This document shows, in pieces, positions 47,831 to 56,472 of a stretch of DNA of 64,000 nt. Below the pieces are notes generated by a model that had not been told where the DNA came from, did no database searches, and saw nothing but the letters and a program-made list of their open reading frames with translations. How positions within the stretch are numbered: the stretch's first letter is position 1; each line of letters starts with the position of its first letter. The stretch lies in assembly GCA_003584625.1 (NCBI GenBank), contig AP017647.1:683501-747500 (forward strand). The letters are read 5' to 3'. A program made the position numbers and the translations under genes. Source of the DNA: Methanothermobacter sp. MT-2. Lineage in GTDB: Archaea; Methanobacteriota; Methanobacteria; Methanobacteriales; DSM-23052.

Positions 47831-47964
47831 ATATGAGGATTTGGGGGGATTGTTTTATTTGTAATGTTGCATGATCATGTTCTCCCTTCATATTTTTCGC
47901 CCCTAAAAGAGATAGTAATCTTTTTATACTATAATGTATTATCATATTTTTGTGGTGGTTTGTT

Positions 47965-50505
47965 ATGAGGAGGTTATTGTTTCTTCTGGCAATCCTCTCT
48001 TGTTTCTGTCTTTTGGGCAGTTCTTCAGCTGTGAGTTTATCCTATGATGAGATTTGTGACGTTTCAAAGCTGATCGGAAACTACACTGCACAAAATGGGA
48101 AAATACCATCACAGGTTGTGATTAACGGTAAGAATGTGTCGGCAGACGACTACCTCTACGCCTCATCCACAACCATCATAAACCTTGATCAGGGTAGGAG
48201 AGTTGGCTTGTCATTCAATAGTATGGCCTCCCCGCCCAGTCCAAGTGGAACAGGAACAGGAACACTCCAAAAAGCAGGATACCTGCAGGTGGCAAAGAAC
48301 GTTAAGGCTTTCATGGAATCCTATGGGAGGTCGCCGAATTATGCCAGCACAGCCATTGGACAAATCCGCCCAGAAAGCCTAATATATGCCAATGCAAGGA
48401 TAATAAACTTCTACAACAGCACAGGAAGACTACCAAACCATGTAACAGTAGAATATGTTACAGGTAAGGCCGGAACCCTGACAAGGCGAAGGGCAGACTA
48501 CACCTACACAATACAAGGCTATAATGTCCAATTCCAGGATAAAAGTACAGGGACAATACAATACTACAAATGGGACTTCGGAGACCAAAGCACAAGCACC
48601 CAGAAGAATCCAGTACACGCCTACAAACCAGGAACCTACAAAGCAACCCTAACAGTCCAAGGCTATGGCATAACAGACACGAAGACTATGACATTGGAGG
48701 TTATGCTTGCAACGGTCCATGTTAATTCCACGGCAACATCCTCTGGGAAGCCTCTAAATTTAACATTTAAAATTCCGCTCAATGACACGGTTAAATGGAT
48801 TAGTATAGGGGCTATAGCTTCGGGCCTATTCAATGAAACAATATTCCTTGTGGAGGATGGCACAGCATACAAACTAGCCGAGGTCACTAACCCATTCTAC
48901 CAGGCTAACAGCCAGAGCCAAAGAGAAATAGTCTGGCAAGTCATAGCTGGCCTGAACAGACTCATAGAAATTTACACAAAGCTCGGAGCAGAACCTCAAG
49001 TGAATGAATATCTCAACAACTTCAATTTAACCCAGGCAGAAAAGACATTCATACTCACAAACTATAACAAGTGCATAGACCCTTTACAGGTCAGTGTGGA
49101 GTATCCCGGCGAGGAAAGCGTGACAATAGCCAATATAACATTCCCAGGGAACCGATCAACAAGGACGCTCCTACTACTCTACACAAACGGCTACTACATA
49201 CACCCGCCAGGAGAAACAGGACCCAATATCATAATAAACGACACTCTCATCTGGGAGGCTAGCAACTACGACGCCATCATAACCTACACCCTCGCCACAG
49301 GGAAGATAACAAACCAGACATTACAAAAGTGGCTAAACAGGACATACGAGCCCGGACCATTAAAGGCAGCCCACGGAACATTCCTAACAGGCCTTGAAGT
49401 AATATACCTCCACGATCTCATCGCAGAAGAAGCAGCCACGCGCTATAATGTAACATGGACCAGGACCATGCCAGTGATGGTCTCAGCAGGAGACCACAGC
49501 CCAGGGACATGGATAAGCCTCGAATGCAACCACAACATGGCCGTGAAAGCAGAAGGCACACCCGAAAACATAAAAGCATTCAATTATGCGAGAACATCAG
49601 CTATAAATCCAATAGAATACTATGTGATGGAGGCCCTCTTCCCAGGATCAGACCCCACAAGCGCGCCCACAACAGGAATAGGCCTAACACTCCTCAACGG
49701 CGGGTCACTAAACATTCTCGAAAGCGGGAATTACACGCTTATCAGTGACGGGCAGGGAAGATACATCATAATAGACCATGCAACAGGGATAGTAAGGGAC
49801 ATGATCTATGCTTTCATGGGAGCATACTGCTACTACCACCAGCAAACAGAACTAGCCAAAAAACTTGGGAATGAAATTTTGAATGGGAGTGGTTGGTGGA
49901 AATTTATTGGTGTTGCTGGTGTTTCAACAGCCGAGGCTGCTGTGCTTGAACTGGGTGTGCTTTCAGCCCCAGAAACCCTTGGTTTGAGTTTGGCTGTTAC
50001 CCTGGCCACATATATTATCATGGAGCATCCTGAATGGCTACCATACATCAAAGACGCCGCAATAATGACACTACTACTAACACCAGGTGGTCTGCCAACA
50101 TTCATCACCTACACATTACTAACAGGAGACACAGAACCAATACAAAACTATCTTGAAATACTATCAAGACAGTCAGACGGATGGACCCGTAGAATGGTAA
50201 ATGAGTATAGAGAAGCCGTAGATACTCTAAGGGCGGTTAGCAGTGGTAGTGTTGGTGGCGATCCCGACGATATAGAAAGGGCTATAAATAATTTAGGTAA
50301 ATTCATGAGGGATGAATGGGAGCTGTTCAAGGAGGCTTTAAAGGATGGGGATGTTGTGGGCGCCATAAAACATGGAGGCACTATAATAGGCACCGGAATG
50401 GGCGTTGTGGCCCTGTTAACATATGAGAATCGCGAGGCGATAGAGGCATGCATACTAGGATTCAAAAACTACCTGGAAAAGAAGTTGAGAGAGGCTGGAG
50501 CATGA
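47965..50505 (+). CDS. Cell-wall-bound surface protein with pseudomurein-binding repeats, PKD domain and variable C-terminal tip
   Basis: An 846-residue exported protein. The signal peptide is RRLLFLLAILSCFCLLGSSSA; pseudomurein-binding repeats follow (IGNYTAQNGKIPSQVVI; FMESYGRSPNYAST and FYNSTGRLPNHVTV), then a PKD domain (YYKWDFGDQSTSTQKNPVHAY), a large unassigned region with many N-x-S/T sites, and near residues 600-630 the ISDGQGRYIIIDHATG / AYCYYHQQTE segment reused in partial copies downstream. The tip has two hydrophobic stretches (VSTAEAAVLELGVLSAPETL; LAVTLATYIIMEHPEWLPYI) and a charged helical end. ATG 47965 has GGTGG upstream and a TATA box near 47920. It overlaps the TPR gene by ATGA. 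Confidence 0.88.
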   Translation: MRRLLFLLAILSCFCLLGSSSAVSLSYDEICDVSKLIGNYTAQNGKIPSQVVINGKNVSADDYLYASSTTIINLDQGRRVGLSFNSMASPPSPSGTGTGTLQKAGYLQVAKNVKAFMESYGRSPNYASTAIGQIRPESLIYANARIINFYNSTGRLPNHVTVEYVTGKAGTLTRRRADYTYTIQGYNVQFQDKSTGTIQYYKWDFGDQSTSTQKNPVHAYKPGTYKATLTVQGYGITDTKTMTLEVMLATVHVNSTATSSGKPLNLTFKIPLNDTVKWISIGAIASGLFNETIFLVEDGTAYKLAEVTNPFYQANSQSQREIVWQVIAGLNRLIEIYTKLGAEPQVNEYLNNFNLTQAEKTFILTNYNKCIDPLQVSVEYPGEESVTIANITFPGNRSTRTLLLLYTNGYYIHPPGETGPNIIINDTLIWEASNYDAIITYTLATGKITNQTLQKWLNRTYEPGPLKAAHGTFLTGLEVIYLHDLIAEEAATRYNVTWTRTMPVMVSAGDHSPGTWISLECNHNMAVKAEGTPENIKAFNYARTSAINPIEYYVMEALFPGSDPTSAPTTGIGLTLLNGGSLNILESGNYTLISDGQGRYIIIDHATGIVRDMIYAFMGAYCYYHQQTELAKKLGNEILNGSGWWKFIGVAGVSTAEAAVLELGVLSAPETLGLSLAVTLATYIIMEHPEWLPYIKDAAIMTLLLTPGGLPTFITYTLLTGDTEPIQNYLEILSRQSDGWTRRMVNEYREAVDTLRAVSSGSVGGDPDDIERAINNLGKFMRDEWELFKEALKDGDVVGAIKHGGTIIGTGMGVVALLTYENREAIEACILGFKNYLEKKLREAGA

Positions 50506-51713
50506 ATCCCCTTAAGAAGATAAAGGATTGGATAGCCAGGGGAAAGGCTGGATGGCACCTCAGCGGGGGCCGATCAAGCCTAAAACAGGGAAAATACAAA
50601 GAAGCTCTTAAAGAATTCAGGAAAGCCCTCAAGGCGAGTCCAAACGACCCGGAAATCTTGCACTATAATGCAATGACACTACTAAAACTCAAAAGACCAG
50701 AGAAAGCCTTAAAATGTTATGAAAAAATCCTCAAAAACAATCCAAAACTAGCAGAAGCATGGAACAACAAAGGAGTAGTCCTTAAAGAACTTAAGAGATA
50801 TGATGAGGCATTGGAATGCTATGAAAGGGCACTACAAATAGATCCACAAGACGATGGAACATGGAACAACAAAGGAGCGCTCCTTGACACAATCGGTAAA
50901 CCTGAAAAAGCAATAGAATGCTATGAAAAAGCCTTAGAAATAAACCAAAAAAATGCAAAAGCATGGTATAATAAAGGTAACGGATTACGCAGTCTCGGAA
51001 AATATGAGGAGGCATTGGAATGCTATGAAAAAGCATTACAGATAAACGCAGAATTCGTAGAGGCATGGTACAACAAAGCACTAATTTTTGAAGAACTTAA
51101 GAGATATGATGAGGCATTGGAATGCTATGGAAGGGCACTACAAATAGATCCACAAGACGATGGAACATGGAACAACAAAGGAGCGCTCCTTGACACAATC
51201 GGTAAACCTGAAAAAGCAATAGAATGCTATGAAAAAGCCTTAGAAATAAACCAAAAAAATGCAAAAGCATGGAACAACAAAGGAGTAGTCCTTGAAGAAC
51301 TTAAGAGATATGATGAGGCATTGGAATGCTATGAAAAAGCCTTAGAAATAAACCTAGAAAACGACGAAACATGGGCTAACAAGGGAGTACTCCTCAGGAA
51401 ACTTGGAAAATATGAGGAGGCGCTGGAATGTTTTGAAAAAGCCCTTGAAATAAACCCAGAATTCGCCGATGCATGGGAATGGAAAGGTATAATCCTGGAA
51501 GACCTCAAAAAACCAGAGGAAGCCCTGAAATGCTACGAGAAAGCCCTCAAACTAAACCCCCAAGACAAAACACTATGGTACATGCAAGGAAAAACACTAC
51601 AAAAACTTGGAAAACACCAAAAAGCCAAAAAATCCTACAAAAAAGCCCTGAAAATAGACCCAGAATACAAAAAAGCCAAAAAAGCCCTGAAAGAACTCCA
51701 AATGAAAGGCTAA
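50502..51713 (+). CDS. TPR-repeat protein coupled to the surface protein
   Basis: A 403-residue cytosolic protein: a short basic N-terminus (NPLKKIKDWIARGKAGWHL) and about eleven 34-residue TPR units with consensus AWNNKGVVLKELKRYDEALECYEKALEI. No signal peptide is seen. Start ATG 50502 overlaps the surface protein stop (ATGA), so translation is coupled. TPRs bind proteins; a role as partner or neutraliser of the surface protein tip is an inference from the coupling and from the fact that the partial copy at 52.65 kb duplicates tip end plus TPR together. Confidence 0.88.
   Translation: MNPLKKIKDWIARGKAGWHLSGGRSSLKQGKYKEALKEFRKALKASPNDPEILHYNAMTLLKLKRPEKALKCYEKILKNNPKLAEAWNNKGVVLKELKRYDEALECYERALQIDPQDDGTWNNKGALLDTIGKPEKAIECYEKALEINQKNAKAWYNKGNGLRSLGKYEEALECYEKALQINAEFVEAWYNKALIFEELKRYDEALECYGRALQIDPQDDGTWNNKGALLDTIGKPEKAIECYEKALEINQKNAKAWNNKGVVLEELKRYDEALECYEKALEINLENDETWANKGVLLRKLGKYEEALECFEKALEINPEFADAWEWKGIILEDLKKPEEALKCYEKALKLNPQDKTLWYMQGKTLQKLGKHQKAKKSYKKALKIDPEYKKAKKALKELQMKG
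50786..51269. repeat. Internal 306-bp-spaced direct repeat in the TPR gene
   Basis: The roughly 178-bp segment from about 50786 recurs nearly identically from about 51092, 306 bp away, i.e. exactly three TPR units of 102 bp. A similar 306-bp spacing is present in the second copy (about 53056 and 53362). This shows recent expansion by unequal recombination. Confidence 0.85.
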
Positions 51714-51830
51714 AGTCACTCTTAGGATAACAGCACAGCAAACCTTTGAAGGCTTAAAGGACAACGCGAGAAAAGCCTTCAAGAGGCCTTATTAGCCCAA
51801 TACAACCCGCCCCACACAATCCCATGACCT

Positions 51831-52279
51831 TTGGAAATCATCAGTTATGGCCTGGTGGGTCAGGGCCTCATAAGAGTTAACATGGCAGCATACGCAACAA
51901 CAATAGCCTACATAGACTCCAAACTCAACAACATTACAGGTAGCATCAAAGAATTTATCGTGGAACATCAAACATACATCCCAAAGGATATTCTAGATGC
52001 AGTAGGTGTGGTTGGTGGCTGTTATTTTATGTTAGAAGGAGGATCTTTTGTGGCAACTGTAGCCTTGTTTTTTGTATTATTGCAGAAGGGGATTTGATTC
52101 TTAATATAAGGGATCATTACCTACCTAGGGAATACTGGAAGTATATATCCCTTCATCGTGGCCCGATATATGGATACAAACTGGAAGCATACATTGGTGC
52201 GGATAATTGTATACACTACAAGGAGATTCCTAAAAATCCAGATGATACGCTAAGAGAGAATGAAACAATATACATTTAG
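51831..52279 (+). pseudogene. Orphan C-terminal tip module B (EHQTYIP / RDHYLP type), frameshifted
   Basis: Two frames overlapping by 4 bp at 52094 encode parts of one protein: GSIKEFIVEHQTYIPKDILDAVGVVGG with a hydrophobic middle, then LNIRDHYLPREYWKYISLHR and CIHYKEIPKNPDDTLRENETIYI. The same protein occurs in one continuous frame at 54714-55076, so a shift has occurred here, unless TTG 52094 (AAGGGGAT upstream) makes the second part a separate product. No signal peptide; it lacks the N-terminal wall-binding region and looks like a displaced C-terminus of a surface protein. Confidence 0.6.
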
Positions 52280-52296
52280 GTAAATAGAGGGGTTGT

Positions 52297-52554
52297 ATGA
52301 TTGAAAGGTCTGAAAAAGGTGAAAGAAAATTTGATATACTTTTTATGGTTACTTTCATAATCTTTTTCCTTGAACTGTTATATTTAAACAGCCAAAAGGT
52401 TGAGTTGACTGACTGGTTAGTCGTGGGGCTCCTTTTCGTTTTATTGTATTTTTTCAGAAAAAAAGAAGATTGGATAATTCGCCATCAAGAGGCAATCAGA
52501 ATTTTTGGGCTAATGATGCTCGCAATTCTTACGATTAGAATCCTTAAGACATGA
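52297..52554 (+). CDS. Small membrane protein, putative partner of tip B
   Basis: An 85-residue protein with two or three membrane helices (FDILFMVTFIIFFLELLYL; WLVVGLLFVLLYFF; IFGLMMLAILTIRIL). It follows tip module B by 17 bp. Two other tip modules (D and E) are also followed by small multi-pass membrane proteins of unrelated sequence, the layout expected of immunity genes; this is inference. No family recognised. Confidence 0.6.
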   Translation: MIERSEKGERKFDILFMVTFIIFFLELLYLNSQKVELTDWLVVGLLFVLLYFFRKKEDWIIRHQEAIRIFGLMMLAILTIRILKT

Positions 52555-52649
52555 AAAAACCTCATGTAAACCTATACTAACAGATAAATAAAGAATCAAC
52601 CCTAATAGGTTCCGCTGCAAGCATAGGAAGCCTATCAGAATCATGAGAC

Positions 52650-53727
52650 GATAAAAACTTGCATACTAGGACCCAACGATTACATGAAAAAGAAGTTGAG
52701 AGAGGCTGGAGCATGACCCCCCTTAAGAAGATAAAGGATTGGATAGCCGAGGGAAAGGCTGGATGGCACCTTGCTGGGGGCCGATCAAGCCTAGAACGTG
52801 GAGACTACAAAGAAGCCCTCAAAGAATTCAGGAAGCCCTCAAAGCAAGACCAAACGACCCGGAAATCCTCCACTACAATGCAATAACACTACTAAAACTC
52901 AAAAAACCAGAGAAAGCCTTAGAATGCTATGAAAAAATCCTCAAAAACAATCCAAAACTAGCAGAAGCATGGAACAACAAAGGAGTAGTCCTTGAAGAAC
53001 TTGAGAGATATGATGAGGCACTAGAATGCTATGAAAAAGCCTTGGAAATAGATCCAGAAGATGATGGAACATGGGCTAATAAGGGAGTACTCCTCAGGAA
53101 ACTTGGAAAATATGAGGATGCACTGGAATGCTTTCAAAAAGCCCTTGAAATAAACCCAGAATTCGCTGATGCATGGAAATGGAAAGGCATAATCCTAGAA
53201 GACCTCAAAGAAGCAGAGGAAGCCCTGAAATGCTACAAGAAAACCCTCAAACTAGACCCGCAAAACAAAACACTATGGTACATGCAAGGAGCAGCACTAC
53301 AAAAACTCGGCAAACACAAAGAAGCACTAAAATGCTATGAAAAAGCCTTGGAAATAGATCCAGAAGATGATGGAACATGGGCTAATAAGGGAGTACTCCT
53401 CAGGAAACTTGGAAAATATGAGGATGCACTGGAATGCTTTCAAAAAGCCCTTGAAATAAACTCAGAATTCGCTGATGCATGGAAATGGAAAGGCATAATC
53501 CTAGAAGACCTCAAAGAAGCAGAGGAAGCCCTGAAATGCTACAAGAAAGCCCTCAAACTAGACCCGCAAAACAAAACACTATGGTACATGCAAGGAGCAG
53601 CACTACAAAAACTCGGCAAACACAAAGAAGCACTAAAATGCTACGAAAATCCCTGGAAATAGATCCAGAATACAAAAAAGCCAAAAAAGCCCTGAAAGAA
53701 CTCACCATCCAAAAAAATCAACCATAA
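52650..53727 (+). pseudogene. Second copy: surface-protein 3' end plus TPR gene, with two frameshifts
   Basis: Positions 52650-52712 repeat the last codons of the full surface protein (LEKKLREAGA and stop). The TPR copy starts at ATG 52713 (TPLKKIKDWIAEGKAGWHLA) and has about eight repeats. One A is missing near 52830 (GGAAGCC versus GGAAAGCC in the first copy) and one near 53645. Correcting both gives a protein of about 338 residues ending at 53727. The comparison with 50502-51713 makes the lesions clear. It shows that tip end and TPR move together. Confidence 0.8.
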
Positions 53728-53734
53728 ACCCAAA

Positions 53735-54359
53735 TCCCAGGATCAAAACCTCCGCACAACAGGAATAGGCCTAACACTCCTCAACGGCAGGTCACTAAAC
53801 ATCCTAGAAAACGAAGTATGCGCTTATCAGTGACGGGCAGGGAAGATACCTCATCATAGACCATGCAACAGGGATAGTAAGGGACATGATCTATGCTTTC
53901 ATGGGAGCATACTGCTACTACCACCAACAAACAGAATGGGCCAAAGAACTTGGTCTGATTGTTATGGAGGTTGAGAGGTTTATGGATTTGCCTTTTGGGC
54001 CTTTGTTGGCGGCTGTTTTCCCAGGTGAAATGTATATTGTTTGTTGCTCCAGCATCATATATTATTATTTAGGTTCTATAGAACCGCTTAGAGGAGTTCT
54101 AGAAAATTTAACATGCAATTGGAGGATGGTGTACAGGTTTGATGGATGGGAAATTGTCAAAGAGAGGATTGAACATGCAAAACTGATATTCTTGGGTGCT
54201 GTAACAATACTAGGAGGATTGGAAAGTGGAGGATGGTTCTCTCGTTTGTCAAGTTTGGGTGGTGGTTTGGATTTATTGGTTAATGGACTGAGAGAATATG
54301 AGCAATGGTACAAGAGTGAAGGCTATAAATATGATGATGCCTTGAGGCTGAAAGCATGA
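53735..54359 (+). pseudogene. Orphan module D: shared surface-protein core plus a different C-terminal tip
   Basis: Positions 53735-53953 match 49641-49868 of the full gene (TGIGLTLLNG, DGQGRYLIIDHATGIVRDMIY, AYCYYHQQTEWAKELG), with one frameshift near 53820. After this the sequence switches to an unrelated tip: VMEVERFMDLPFGPLLAAVFPGE, a hydrophobic stretch, NLTCNWRMVYRFDGWEIVKERIEHAKLI and LREYEQWYKSEGYKYDDALRLKA. A frame from ATG 53886 gives 157 residues. No signal peptide or wall-binding part is present, so it looks like a stored alternative C-terminus. It overlaps the next gene by ATGA. Confidence 0.75.
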
Positions 54360-54721
54360 GTGAAGATATGAAATGGTCGTTATTTATCATCGAAGGAATT
54401 TTATGTTCCCTTTTCATTGCTTGTTATATTGTTTTAGGTTTTAATCTGGCGTTTCCATGGCTAATATTGGTAGGGGTGGCTGATTATTTAGGTTGTGAGG
54501 CGGCTGGAAAATACCCTGATAAAAAGAAAAGATTAGAAGCCATTATATACATACTAACTTTAATTTCATGCGTCATCCTTATTTATTATATGTCAGAACC
54601 CTTCAAGATACTAGCAGCATTAACACTCATAGTAACCTTAATATACGGGAATAAAAGAATCTCCAGCCCCCCACGCCCAAAAAAACTGGAAAATCTTAAA
54701 GAAAAAATATTAAACCTATAA
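54356..54721 (+). CDS. Four-helix membrane protein, putative partner of tip D
   Basis: A 121-residue protein with about four membrane helices (LFIIEGILCSLFIACYIVLGF; FPWLILVGVADYLGC; AIIYILTLISCVILIYYM; ILAALTLIVTLIYG) and a basic C-terminal tail. Its ATG overlaps the stop of tip D, indicating translational coupling. It is unrelated in sequence to the small membrane proteins after tips B and E. An immunity function is suggested by position only. Confidence 0.65.
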   Translation: MSEDMKWSLFIIEGILCSLFIACYIVLGFNLAFPWLILVGVADYLGCEAAGKYPDKKKRLEAIIYILTLISCVILIYYMSEPFKILAALTLIVTLIYGNKRISSPPRPKKLENLKEKILNL

Positions 54722-55076
54722 AAAAATATCACAACTCATCACAGACGATATCAAAAAATTCATCATAGAACACCAAACATACATTCCAAGAGACATTATA
54801 GATATTTTACTTATTGTTTTTGGATACGTGTCAAAAGGAGGTGCTAGTGTAATATTAGTGCCAATTGGGTCTTGTATGTGGATAGGTGAGAACATATTGA
54901 GATTTAGAGATCATTATCTTCCAAAAGAGTACTGGAAGTATATTTCGATTCATCGTAGCTGGGCTTATGGTTATGAGTTGAGATGTTATGTTGGTGAGGA
55001 TCATTGTATACACTATATTGAAATACCGAAGAATCCTGATGGTAGTTTGAGGTGGGATGAAGCAGTATATATCTAA
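54714..55076 (+). pseudogene. Orphan C-terminal tip module E (second EHQTYIP / RDHYLP copy)
   Basis: The frame is open from 54714 with no start codon before GTG 54828. It encodes DDIKKFIIEHQTYIPRDIID, a hydrophobic segment, then LRFRDHYLPKEYWKYISIHR, YGYELRCYVGEDHCIHYIEIPKNPDGSLR and stop. This is a homologue of module B with many substitutions, most conserved in the last 60 residues (RDHYLP(K/R)EYWKYIS and CIHYxEIPKNPD). The conserved His, Arg, Glu and Tyr pattern may be an active site, but I cannot assign a known toxin family. Confidence 0.65.
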
Positions 55077-55332
55077 AGTGGAGGGGATCTTATTGGATTA
55101 TGAATCTTGGTATAAGAGGGCTTATCCTCTTATCTGCATAGTTATGTTCCTATGTATTCTTGCGCTTAAGTATCATTGTGATGTTTTGTCCCTAATAGCA
55201 GCCCCTTTAGGCTTGTTCACTCTTCTCCTTTTATGCTGGCTCTACTACGAGTTGAAGGAAAAAGAGTATGAAATAAGATGGATGATGGTAATGCTCCTTA
55301 TAGTGGGTTTAATTGCATCTCCAGGGGTATAA
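55057..55332 (+). CDS. Small membrane protein, putative partner of tip E
   Basis: A 91-residue protein with three membrane helices (AYPLICIVMFLCILALKYH; LSLIAAPLGLFTLLLLCWLYY; MMVMLLIVGLIASPGV). ATG 55057 lies 20 bp inside the end of tip E, so translation is tightly coupled. It is unlike the proteins after tips B and D. The arrangement repeats the tip-plus-membrane-protein order for the third time. Confidence 0.65.
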   Translation: MKQYISKVEGILLDYESWYKRAYPLICIVMFLCILALKYHCDVLSLIAAPLGLFTLLLLCWLYYELKEKEYEIRWMMVMLLIVGLIASPGV

Positions 55333-55449
55333 CAGGGCTATTTAATTATTGTCGGGACATCAAACCCCTCAGAGTTCAATGCAACGCCTATTCCCATACA
55401 ATGGAAGCCTCGACAATATAGGGGATATCATGGAAGGTGCTGCGATCAC

Positions 55450-55845
55450 AAGCATAGCATACAGGCTCCTGAACGGAGAAAAAACTAAATATTACAAAAG
55501 CTGGGAACTACACCATAATAGGCTATGATAATGACTATCTAGTCATTGACTCGGCAACAGGAATATTAAGGAATGTCAGAGTCTTTAATAGTATCTATGG
55601 GGCTTACTGTTTCAGCCACCTCCAGACAGAATGGGCAGCCAACCTCGCAAAAGAACTACTGAATAGGAGCAGTTGGTGGAAGTTCATTGGGTTCGCTGGT
55701 GTTTCAACGGCCGAAGCAGCTGCACTTGAATTGGGTGTGCTTTCAGCCCCAGAAACACTAGGTTTAGGCTTGGTAGTTGCAGTAGTCGCTTGTATCCTCA
55801 TTGAGCACCCTGAGTGGCTCCCATACATCGAAGATACTATTATTC
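55450..55845 (+). pseudogene. Orphan module F: surface-protein core fragment
   Basis: After frame corrections this stretch encodes TIIGYDNDYLVIDSATGILRN, GAYCFSHLQTEWAANLAKELL, SSWWKFIGFAGVSTAEAA and LELGVLSAPETLGLGLVV up to IEHPEWLPYIEDT. It is homologous to 49740-50060 of the full gene but more diverged than module D. It ends abruptly at about 55845, where sequence of a CobN-like gene begins. No start codon or signal peptide. Confidence 0.7.
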
Positions 55846-56472
55846 AGGGAGATCTTTCCGCTTCTGGGCGTGCTCCTGGACCGCGCATCGAGGGTGGCAC
55901 TTGCAGCATCCTTCAACACACTGATGGCAGCTATAAATCAGAAAACAGCAGATAACAGGACAAAACTCCTCGCCGCACTCAACGCTTCGGTTTCAAGCAT
56001 CCAGAAAGCCGGACTCTTCATTCCTGGCAGCGACCCACTTGATAAGAACCCCATTGCAGTTCACTGGCTCTCAGACGTTAAGGCGCTCATTAAACTTGGA
56101 ATGAAACCCGAGGACGCTGGAATCGCCGCAATATCCAGGCTATTTGGACCATCCCTTGGTAACTATGGCACCAGACTCCCTGAGGCTGTTCAGCAGGACT
56201 GGACATGGGATGAGAGACTGGACCTTGGAAAACTCTACATCGATAGCATGAAGTATGCGCTGAGCGAGAATGGCTGGGGAGTGGACCTTGAAGAGGTTCT
56301 AACAATGAGGCTACGTGACGTTGAGGGTGTCTACCACTCAAGGTCAACAAATTTCTATGGCGTTGTGGACGTGGACCATAACTTCGAGTTCCTCGGTGGT
56401 TTCAGGCTTGCAGTGGAGGCTGCAGAGGGCAATGTGTCTTTTGATTGCATCAGGCAGTTCCCTTTCATGTAG
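55846..56472 (+). pseudogene. Fragment of a CobN-like cobalt/magnesium chelatase large subunit
   Basis: About 209 codons in one frame: REIFPLLGVLLDRASRVALA, AGLFIPGSDPLDKNPIAVHW, GMKPEDAGIAAISRLFGPSLGNYG, DLGKLYIDSMKYALSENGWG and VYHSRSTNFYGVVDVDHNFEFLGG. These are conserved segments of the C-terminal half of CobN/BchH-type subunits (over 1200 residues when complete), which insert metal into tetrapyrroles. Both ends are missing, so it is not functional. It shows that the surface-protein array recombined into or beside a metal-chelatase gene. Confidence 0.8.

Follow-up and report, generated by a model that had tools for sequence, protein, structure and literature searches.

A putative polymorphic toxin–immunity array with carriers and tip families of its own in the pseudomurein-walled archaeon Methanothermobacter sp. 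MT-2

Wall-bound carrier proteins with a swappable tip and an accompanying partner gene are known from the WapA/Rhs proteins of Gram-positive bacteria, and in CdiA/CdiB loci of contact-dependent inhibition (CDI) orphan tip–partner modules are found downstream of one full gene. Bacterial polymorphic toxin systems possess a secreted modular carrier with a variable C-terminal tip past a conserved junction, a partner encoded directly after the tip, a bank of start-less cassettes and tip domains that occur on several carriers (PMC3482391). In 2012 archaea were described as generally lacking them, a few exceptions aside (PMC3482391); a survey, as far as it is cited in PMC8416519, predicts polymorphic toxins in many archaea. 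In the VARTIG modules of Thermococcales, which are archaea, a hypervariable surface protein precedes membrane proteins that are specific to each subfamily (PMC8416519). Here, we describe an array in the genome (1.52 Mb) of the Methanobacteriales member Methanothermobacter sp. MT-2, in which one gene for a wall protein, the carrier, is followed by orphan C-terminal modules and their neighbouring genes. The window, i.e. the whole analysed stretch of 64,000 nucleotides (nt), corresponds to G000:C1:683501-747500; positions are window positions unless stated otherwise and all window features mentioned lie on the plus strand.

The properties listed above for bacterial polymorphic toxin systems recur in this locus. 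It differs from those systems in its core, tips and small membrane proteins, which have no Pfam or NCBIfam match, in its anchoring by pseudomurein-binding repeats (PMBR) and in the TPR proteins that are a frequent partner. The closest functional analogues are the WapA/Rhs proteins of Gram-positive bacteria, from which the array is distinguished by another wall polymer and another carrier; in this carrier Pfam finds only PMBR and PKD, and no Rhs/YD repeats. With CdiA/CdiB it shares the arrangement of one full gene and downstream orphan tip–partner modules, but there is one membrane here and so no outer-membrane route; a two-partner secretion domain has no Pfam match in the carrier, and a CdiB-like gene, for which no search was made, was not noticed. 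VARTIG varies in an Ig domain, whereas here homologous tips sit on unrelated carriers, the tips show no Ig-like match in Pfam and the PKD domain belongs to the constant part. With a probability of about three in four (0.74) we consider the locus to be a polymorphic toxin–immunity system that has carriers and tip families of its own, which supports the toxin-array interpretation proposed in an initial annotation of this DNA. That annotation also took such a gene order to be unknown for pseudomurein-walled archaea. This has to be narrowed, as archaeal polymorphic toxins were predicted earlier (PMC3482391, PMC8416519), and it may stand for the present Methanobacteriales family, which is described in none of the papers found; these did not include the Makarova 2019 survey (mBio 10:e00715-19).

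The carrier gene (47965..50505; open reading frame, ORF, 47950/47965-50505) encodes in this order a signal peptide, three pseudomurein-binding repeats, PKD, a mid region, a core and an A-type tip. Its Pfam matches (PMBR 1.2e-28 for the three repeats, PKD 6e-13) agree with the composition initially assigned to the one full gene; the Pfam search gave no match for the C-terminal part. The hydrophobic N-terminal signal MRRLLFLLAILSCFCLLGSSSA together with the wall-binding repeats predicts a secreted, wall-anchored protein. Upstream, the stretch CTTTTTATAC (47920..47929) reads like an archaeal TATA-box, and GGTGG immediately 5' of the ATG at 47965 like a ribosome site. The conserved core domain (49315..49893) terminates in GAYCYYHQQTE and has neither a Pfam nor a PDB match; a weak Glyco_hydro_11 match (0.013) was taken as chance. 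Its segment 49668-49851 is repeated across many modules at 93-97% and is likely the anchor of recombination, with tips exchanged at about 49851. The A-type tip (49894..50502), for which an all-helical fold with hydrophobic stretches is predicted by a model that is not reliable, overlaps by ATGA with the gene of a TPR protein (50502..51713), its proposed immunity or chaperone partner.

Comparison among genomes reveals how the tips change. A gene-order search located the equivalent array in the groups G002-G003 and G143-G150, a GTDB scan yielded only four loci because near relatives are left out of its set, and copies of the array families are 70-100% identical in ten genomes, far above chance expectation. 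In thermophilic relatives the carrier is 96-98% DNA-identical up to window position 49851, then the tip changes, and the one displaced is found as an orphan further downstream; high identity begins 75-200 bp upstream of the carrier. The carrier of G148, for example, is 97.1% identical over 47905-49851 and continues into an E-type tip with its membrane protein (Emem), while the A-type tip and its TPR gene are retained as an orphan 1.06 kb further down. Correspondingly, the window from the A tip onward aligns to G148 1.06 kb downstream and the window E module aligns to the G148 insert. E-type or A-type tips occur on cores of 78-100% amino acid identity (G000, G143, G148 and G150). Carriers of merely 76-79% identity occur in G146, G147 and one locus of G143, where an orphan A-tip end plus TPR copy reaches 97-98% identity to that of the window. 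These alignments demonstrate a modular structure with a constant N-terminal carrier, a variable C-terminal tip and tip exchange at a fixed junction; absence of strain-to-strain swapping had initially been named as the outcome that would overturn the toxin reading. As a side observation, the G150 carrier is frame-broken within its core (L034 4161-4263, reverse-complement coordinates), with an A tip and TPR gene identical to those of the window.

Downstream of the TPR gene the window contains the start-less cassettes B, D, E and F and a remnant. Orphan module B (51828..52279) holds a tip of the E family with a frameshift near 52.09 kb, a point absent from the initial annotation; the following membrane protein gene (52297..52554; 85 amino acids, three predicted transmembrane helices), a proposed immunity gene, is intact. 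Homology of the B and E tips, claimed at the outset, is borne out by 70% DNA identity over 170 nt and 67% amino acid identity between the two tips. Remnant module C (52633..53727) keeps just the last ~27 codons of an A tip (52633-52713) and a frame-broken TPR gene. The earlier statement that the full protein and a copy near 52.65 kb are coupled to TPR proteins is thus correct for the carrier, whose ATGA overlap with the TPR start at 50502 had been overlooked, and needs revision for the copy, which is this remnant. Module D (53755..54359) consists of a core segment with 93% DNA identity to that of the carrier and a unique D tip, and its proposed immunity gene Dmem (54356..54721; 121 amino acids) overlaps it by ATGA. 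Module E (54714..55076) contains an E-type tip with a variable hydrophobic part and then a constant C-terminal domain; it overlaps by 20 nt with Emem (55057..55332; 91 amino acids, three predicted transmembrane helices), again a proposed immunity gene. The two overlaps and the different small membrane proteins (three-helix ORFs) after B, D and E are as initially described. The E tip ends with the codons for SLRWDEAVYI, which read GAGGTGGG-ATG, so that ribosome site and start of Emem lie inside the tip. As here (window 55040-55080), homologous tips in L034, L035 and L111 have ends that encode the ribosome site and start of their partner, and in some E-type copies the old partner start persists as a scar ahead of an unrelated partner gene. 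Module F (55473..55843) shares the core with D, as claimed, in a diverged form. It does not carry another end as first supposed: it runs on as an A-type tip (76% amino acid identity over 42 residues) that is cut at about 55843, and in G148, G143 and G003 the F-type core continues into a complete A-type tip and a TPR gene.

Each tip family keeps one type of partner. When the A and D tips of the window are taken together with 20 carriers or modules of other genera, the tip families divide cleanly into 12 cases next to a TPR gene and 10 next to a membrane protein gene, and the partner type is common to 27/27 homologous tip pairs, across genera. Likewise, once decayed pieces, a contig end and one false hit are set aside, each of the 27 E-type tips with intact end is followed within 260 nt by an ORF with two or more transmembrane helices (2-5), compared with 28 of 242 control genes (11.6%) under the same permissive rule; the E-type cases are not independent events because related species are included. 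The B partner gene is retained despite tip decay in three genomes. In seven E-type tips of thermophile arrays the last 65 residues have a similarity of 0.63-0.97 regardless of the partner and the preceding 32 residues form two groups that track the partner family, which is suggestive; the same holds for Mantel correlations with the partner (r=0.74 for the hydrophobic part, r=0.55 for the constant domain), where pairs were preselected for a transmembrane partner and are confounded by common descent. At the level of sequence, these data establish linkage between tip and partner and persistence of the partner after tip loss.

This linkage bears on surface-antigen variation, in which silent C-terminal cassettes would recombine into one expressed wall protein, e.g. 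against receptor-using viruses, with the small genes as anchors or assembly partners. A single expressed carrier with silent cassettes, homogenised core repeats and the adhesin-like stalks of other genera all fit such a scheme, and the orphan modules do resemble silent variants of an expressed gene. It leaves the partner genes unexplained: antigen variation needs no dedicated partner per tip, while here each tip family has its own partner type and partner genes are intact or identical while tips decay. Additionally, the same tip is found on a C39 peptidase carrier and the tips are hydrophobic, unlike an exposed surface, so that we regard this explanation as unlikely.

The C39 carriers came to light with the E-type profile, which also matches secreted C39 peptidase proteins (PF03412, 1e-28 to 1e-31), each followed by a protein with four transmembrane helices. 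The E-type domain is therefore shown by profile matches to be one tip family on two carrier types, the PMBR/core carriers and the C39 carriers; in three carriers checked in other genera beta-helix/Ig adhesin-like stalks take the place of PMBR-PKD. Some C39 loci lie in tandem with start-less modules that have other W/Y-rich tips and membrane genes, and in G150 C39-type modules are situated directly upstream of the carrier. Tandem arrays on secreted C39 peptidase in L131 (8999-11664) and L133 (8713-11236), whose 60-110-residue tips are rich in W, Y and K and in several cases followed by a small membrane gene, look like a second, bacteriocin-like swappable system. The window genome itself has a second, carrier-less bank at G000:C1:464.7-469 kb (L111 6784-10955, minus strand) with the end of a D tip alone, Dmem and three start-less E-type tips with membrane genes, and the Dmem of this bank is 100% DNA-identical to that of the window.

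Bacteriocin leaders have C39 as their protease family, which counts for a bacteriocin-like or signal-peptide system, where tips would be cut off the carrier as diffusible membrane-active peptides or pheromones and the membrane proteins would be immunity proteins or receptors. The short W/Y/K-rich tips of C39 carriers beside membrane genes point in the same direction, and an archaeal C39 locus was taken as bacteriocin or quorum-sensing (PMC6393860). The window carrier binds the wall and has no C39 domain, and A- and D-type tips comprise 130-200 residues, which makes this explanation quite improbable for the array.

Parts of the array are shared far beyond the genus. The A tip and TPR gene of the window recur unchanged in G150 (1737 nt), as does Emem in G003, G143 and G148 (273 nt) and the B tip in G148 (444 nt). 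Ordinary DNA has 80-87% identity to genomes of the same genus and mostly 66-74%, with few stretches up to about 81%, to those of the other GTDB family. With array parts 97-100% identical between GTDB families versus mostly 66-74% for ordinary genes, the sequences demonstrate that the array was transferred laterally, and contamination is unlikely since the assemblies of G143, G148 and G150 consist of one or two contigs. The locus thereby documents recent gene flow between archaeal families. Simple tandem duplication of a structural surface protein along with its neighbours, followed by decay into functionless copies, for which the frameshifts in B, the remnant C and the truncated F could be claimed, is highly improbable, as duplication of one gene cannot yield unrelated tips and partners and is contradicted by tip swaps between genomes and repeated cross-family transfer at 97-100% identity.

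Several observations weigh against a toxin–immunity system. Profile and fold searches gave no tip with a known toxin domain or fold; the A-tip model is unusable (predicted local distance difference test, pLDDT, 43) and the E-tip model, only partly confident (67), has no fold match; it is confident in a small C-terminal domain and unreliable in the hydrophobic N-half. Structure predictions drew on window sequences and related loci only, which is why the underlying alignments are thin. The TPR partners of A-type tips have neither signal peptide nor transmembrane helix, an odd immunity for a membrane-active tip, and common descent of both neighbours accounts for part of the partner linkage. Finally, the core domain is present in 104/152 Methanobacteria (class) genomes, and many Methanobrevibacter-like genomes (genus g10) have a single conserved core protein of ~970-1000 amino acids each, which could be housekeeping, so not all core proteins need be weapons. 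Apart from PMBR, PKD and TPR, tips, partners and core contain no known domain in Pfam, NCBIfam, PADLOC, PHROGs or PDB. Matches of the tips to ordinary structural domains, which the initial annotation had named as evidence against toxins, were thus found neither by sequence nor by the fold of the one usable model. Matches of the E-type profile to the 'cell surface protein' 8pra/8prs (E 0.0002-0.06 over 38 positions) were taken as chance, a CDI complex (6cp9) in the fold search was discarded (E > 1), and a viral origin of E-type tips was rejected with zero such tips in viral contigs.

For the polymorphic toxin–immunity system we propose that the signal peptide exports the carrier, the binding repeats hold it in the pseudomurein wall, and PKD, mid region and core would form stalk and presentation domain, with the last 110-200 residues as putative effector. 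Downstream modules without promoter, start and signal peptide would be a silent bank, from which recombination at the near-identical core segments may place a new tip onto the carrier or push an old one downstream, each tip being accompanied by its own protector. For A-type tips the TPR protein may confer immunity against a tip entering the cytoplasm, or could serve as an export chaperone, and for B, D and E tips the small multi-pass membrane protein would be the partner. With its hydrophobic, specificity-like segment and constant domain the E-type tip most likely acts at the membrane of a neighbouring cell, where the partner may block its own tip by helix packing; secretion and wall anchoring (from domain content), membrane action, immunity and contact dependence are what we infer. 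More tentatively, and at somewhat less than even odds, this could be a toxin–immunity lineage of pseudomurein-walled archaea with one tip family on wall-anchored stalks and C39 peptidases, a variable membrane segment before the constant domain that determines the specificity between tip and membrane immunity protein, and entire arrays passing between methanogen families. If so, the adhesin-like proteins with a terminal core in other methanogens would be weapons, not adhesins. Antagonism between methanogens has hardly been studied, and Methanobacteriales are the dominant methane producers of guts and digesters. The widespread core and its exchangeable tips with linked partners would explain strain competition at the molecular level, add new toxin and immunity families and assign a function to some of the numerous adhesin-like proteins.

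Further observations concern related proteins and the surroundings of the array. In L112-L115 and many g10 genomes the core protein of ~970-1000 amino acids has a distant E-like C-terminus and is followed by membrane proteins of 60-115 amino acids; these may represent a conserved or housekeeping branch. An RNA element as explanation was rejected, as Rfam gave zero matches within the window. The right array edge is marked by a CobN fragment (55844..56472), which abuts the truncated F in another frame and lies outside the system. Elsewhere in the genome (G000:C1:349800-354242), an open frame of 2226 codons with PMBR and two PKD-like matches is a further candidate for a large wall protein.

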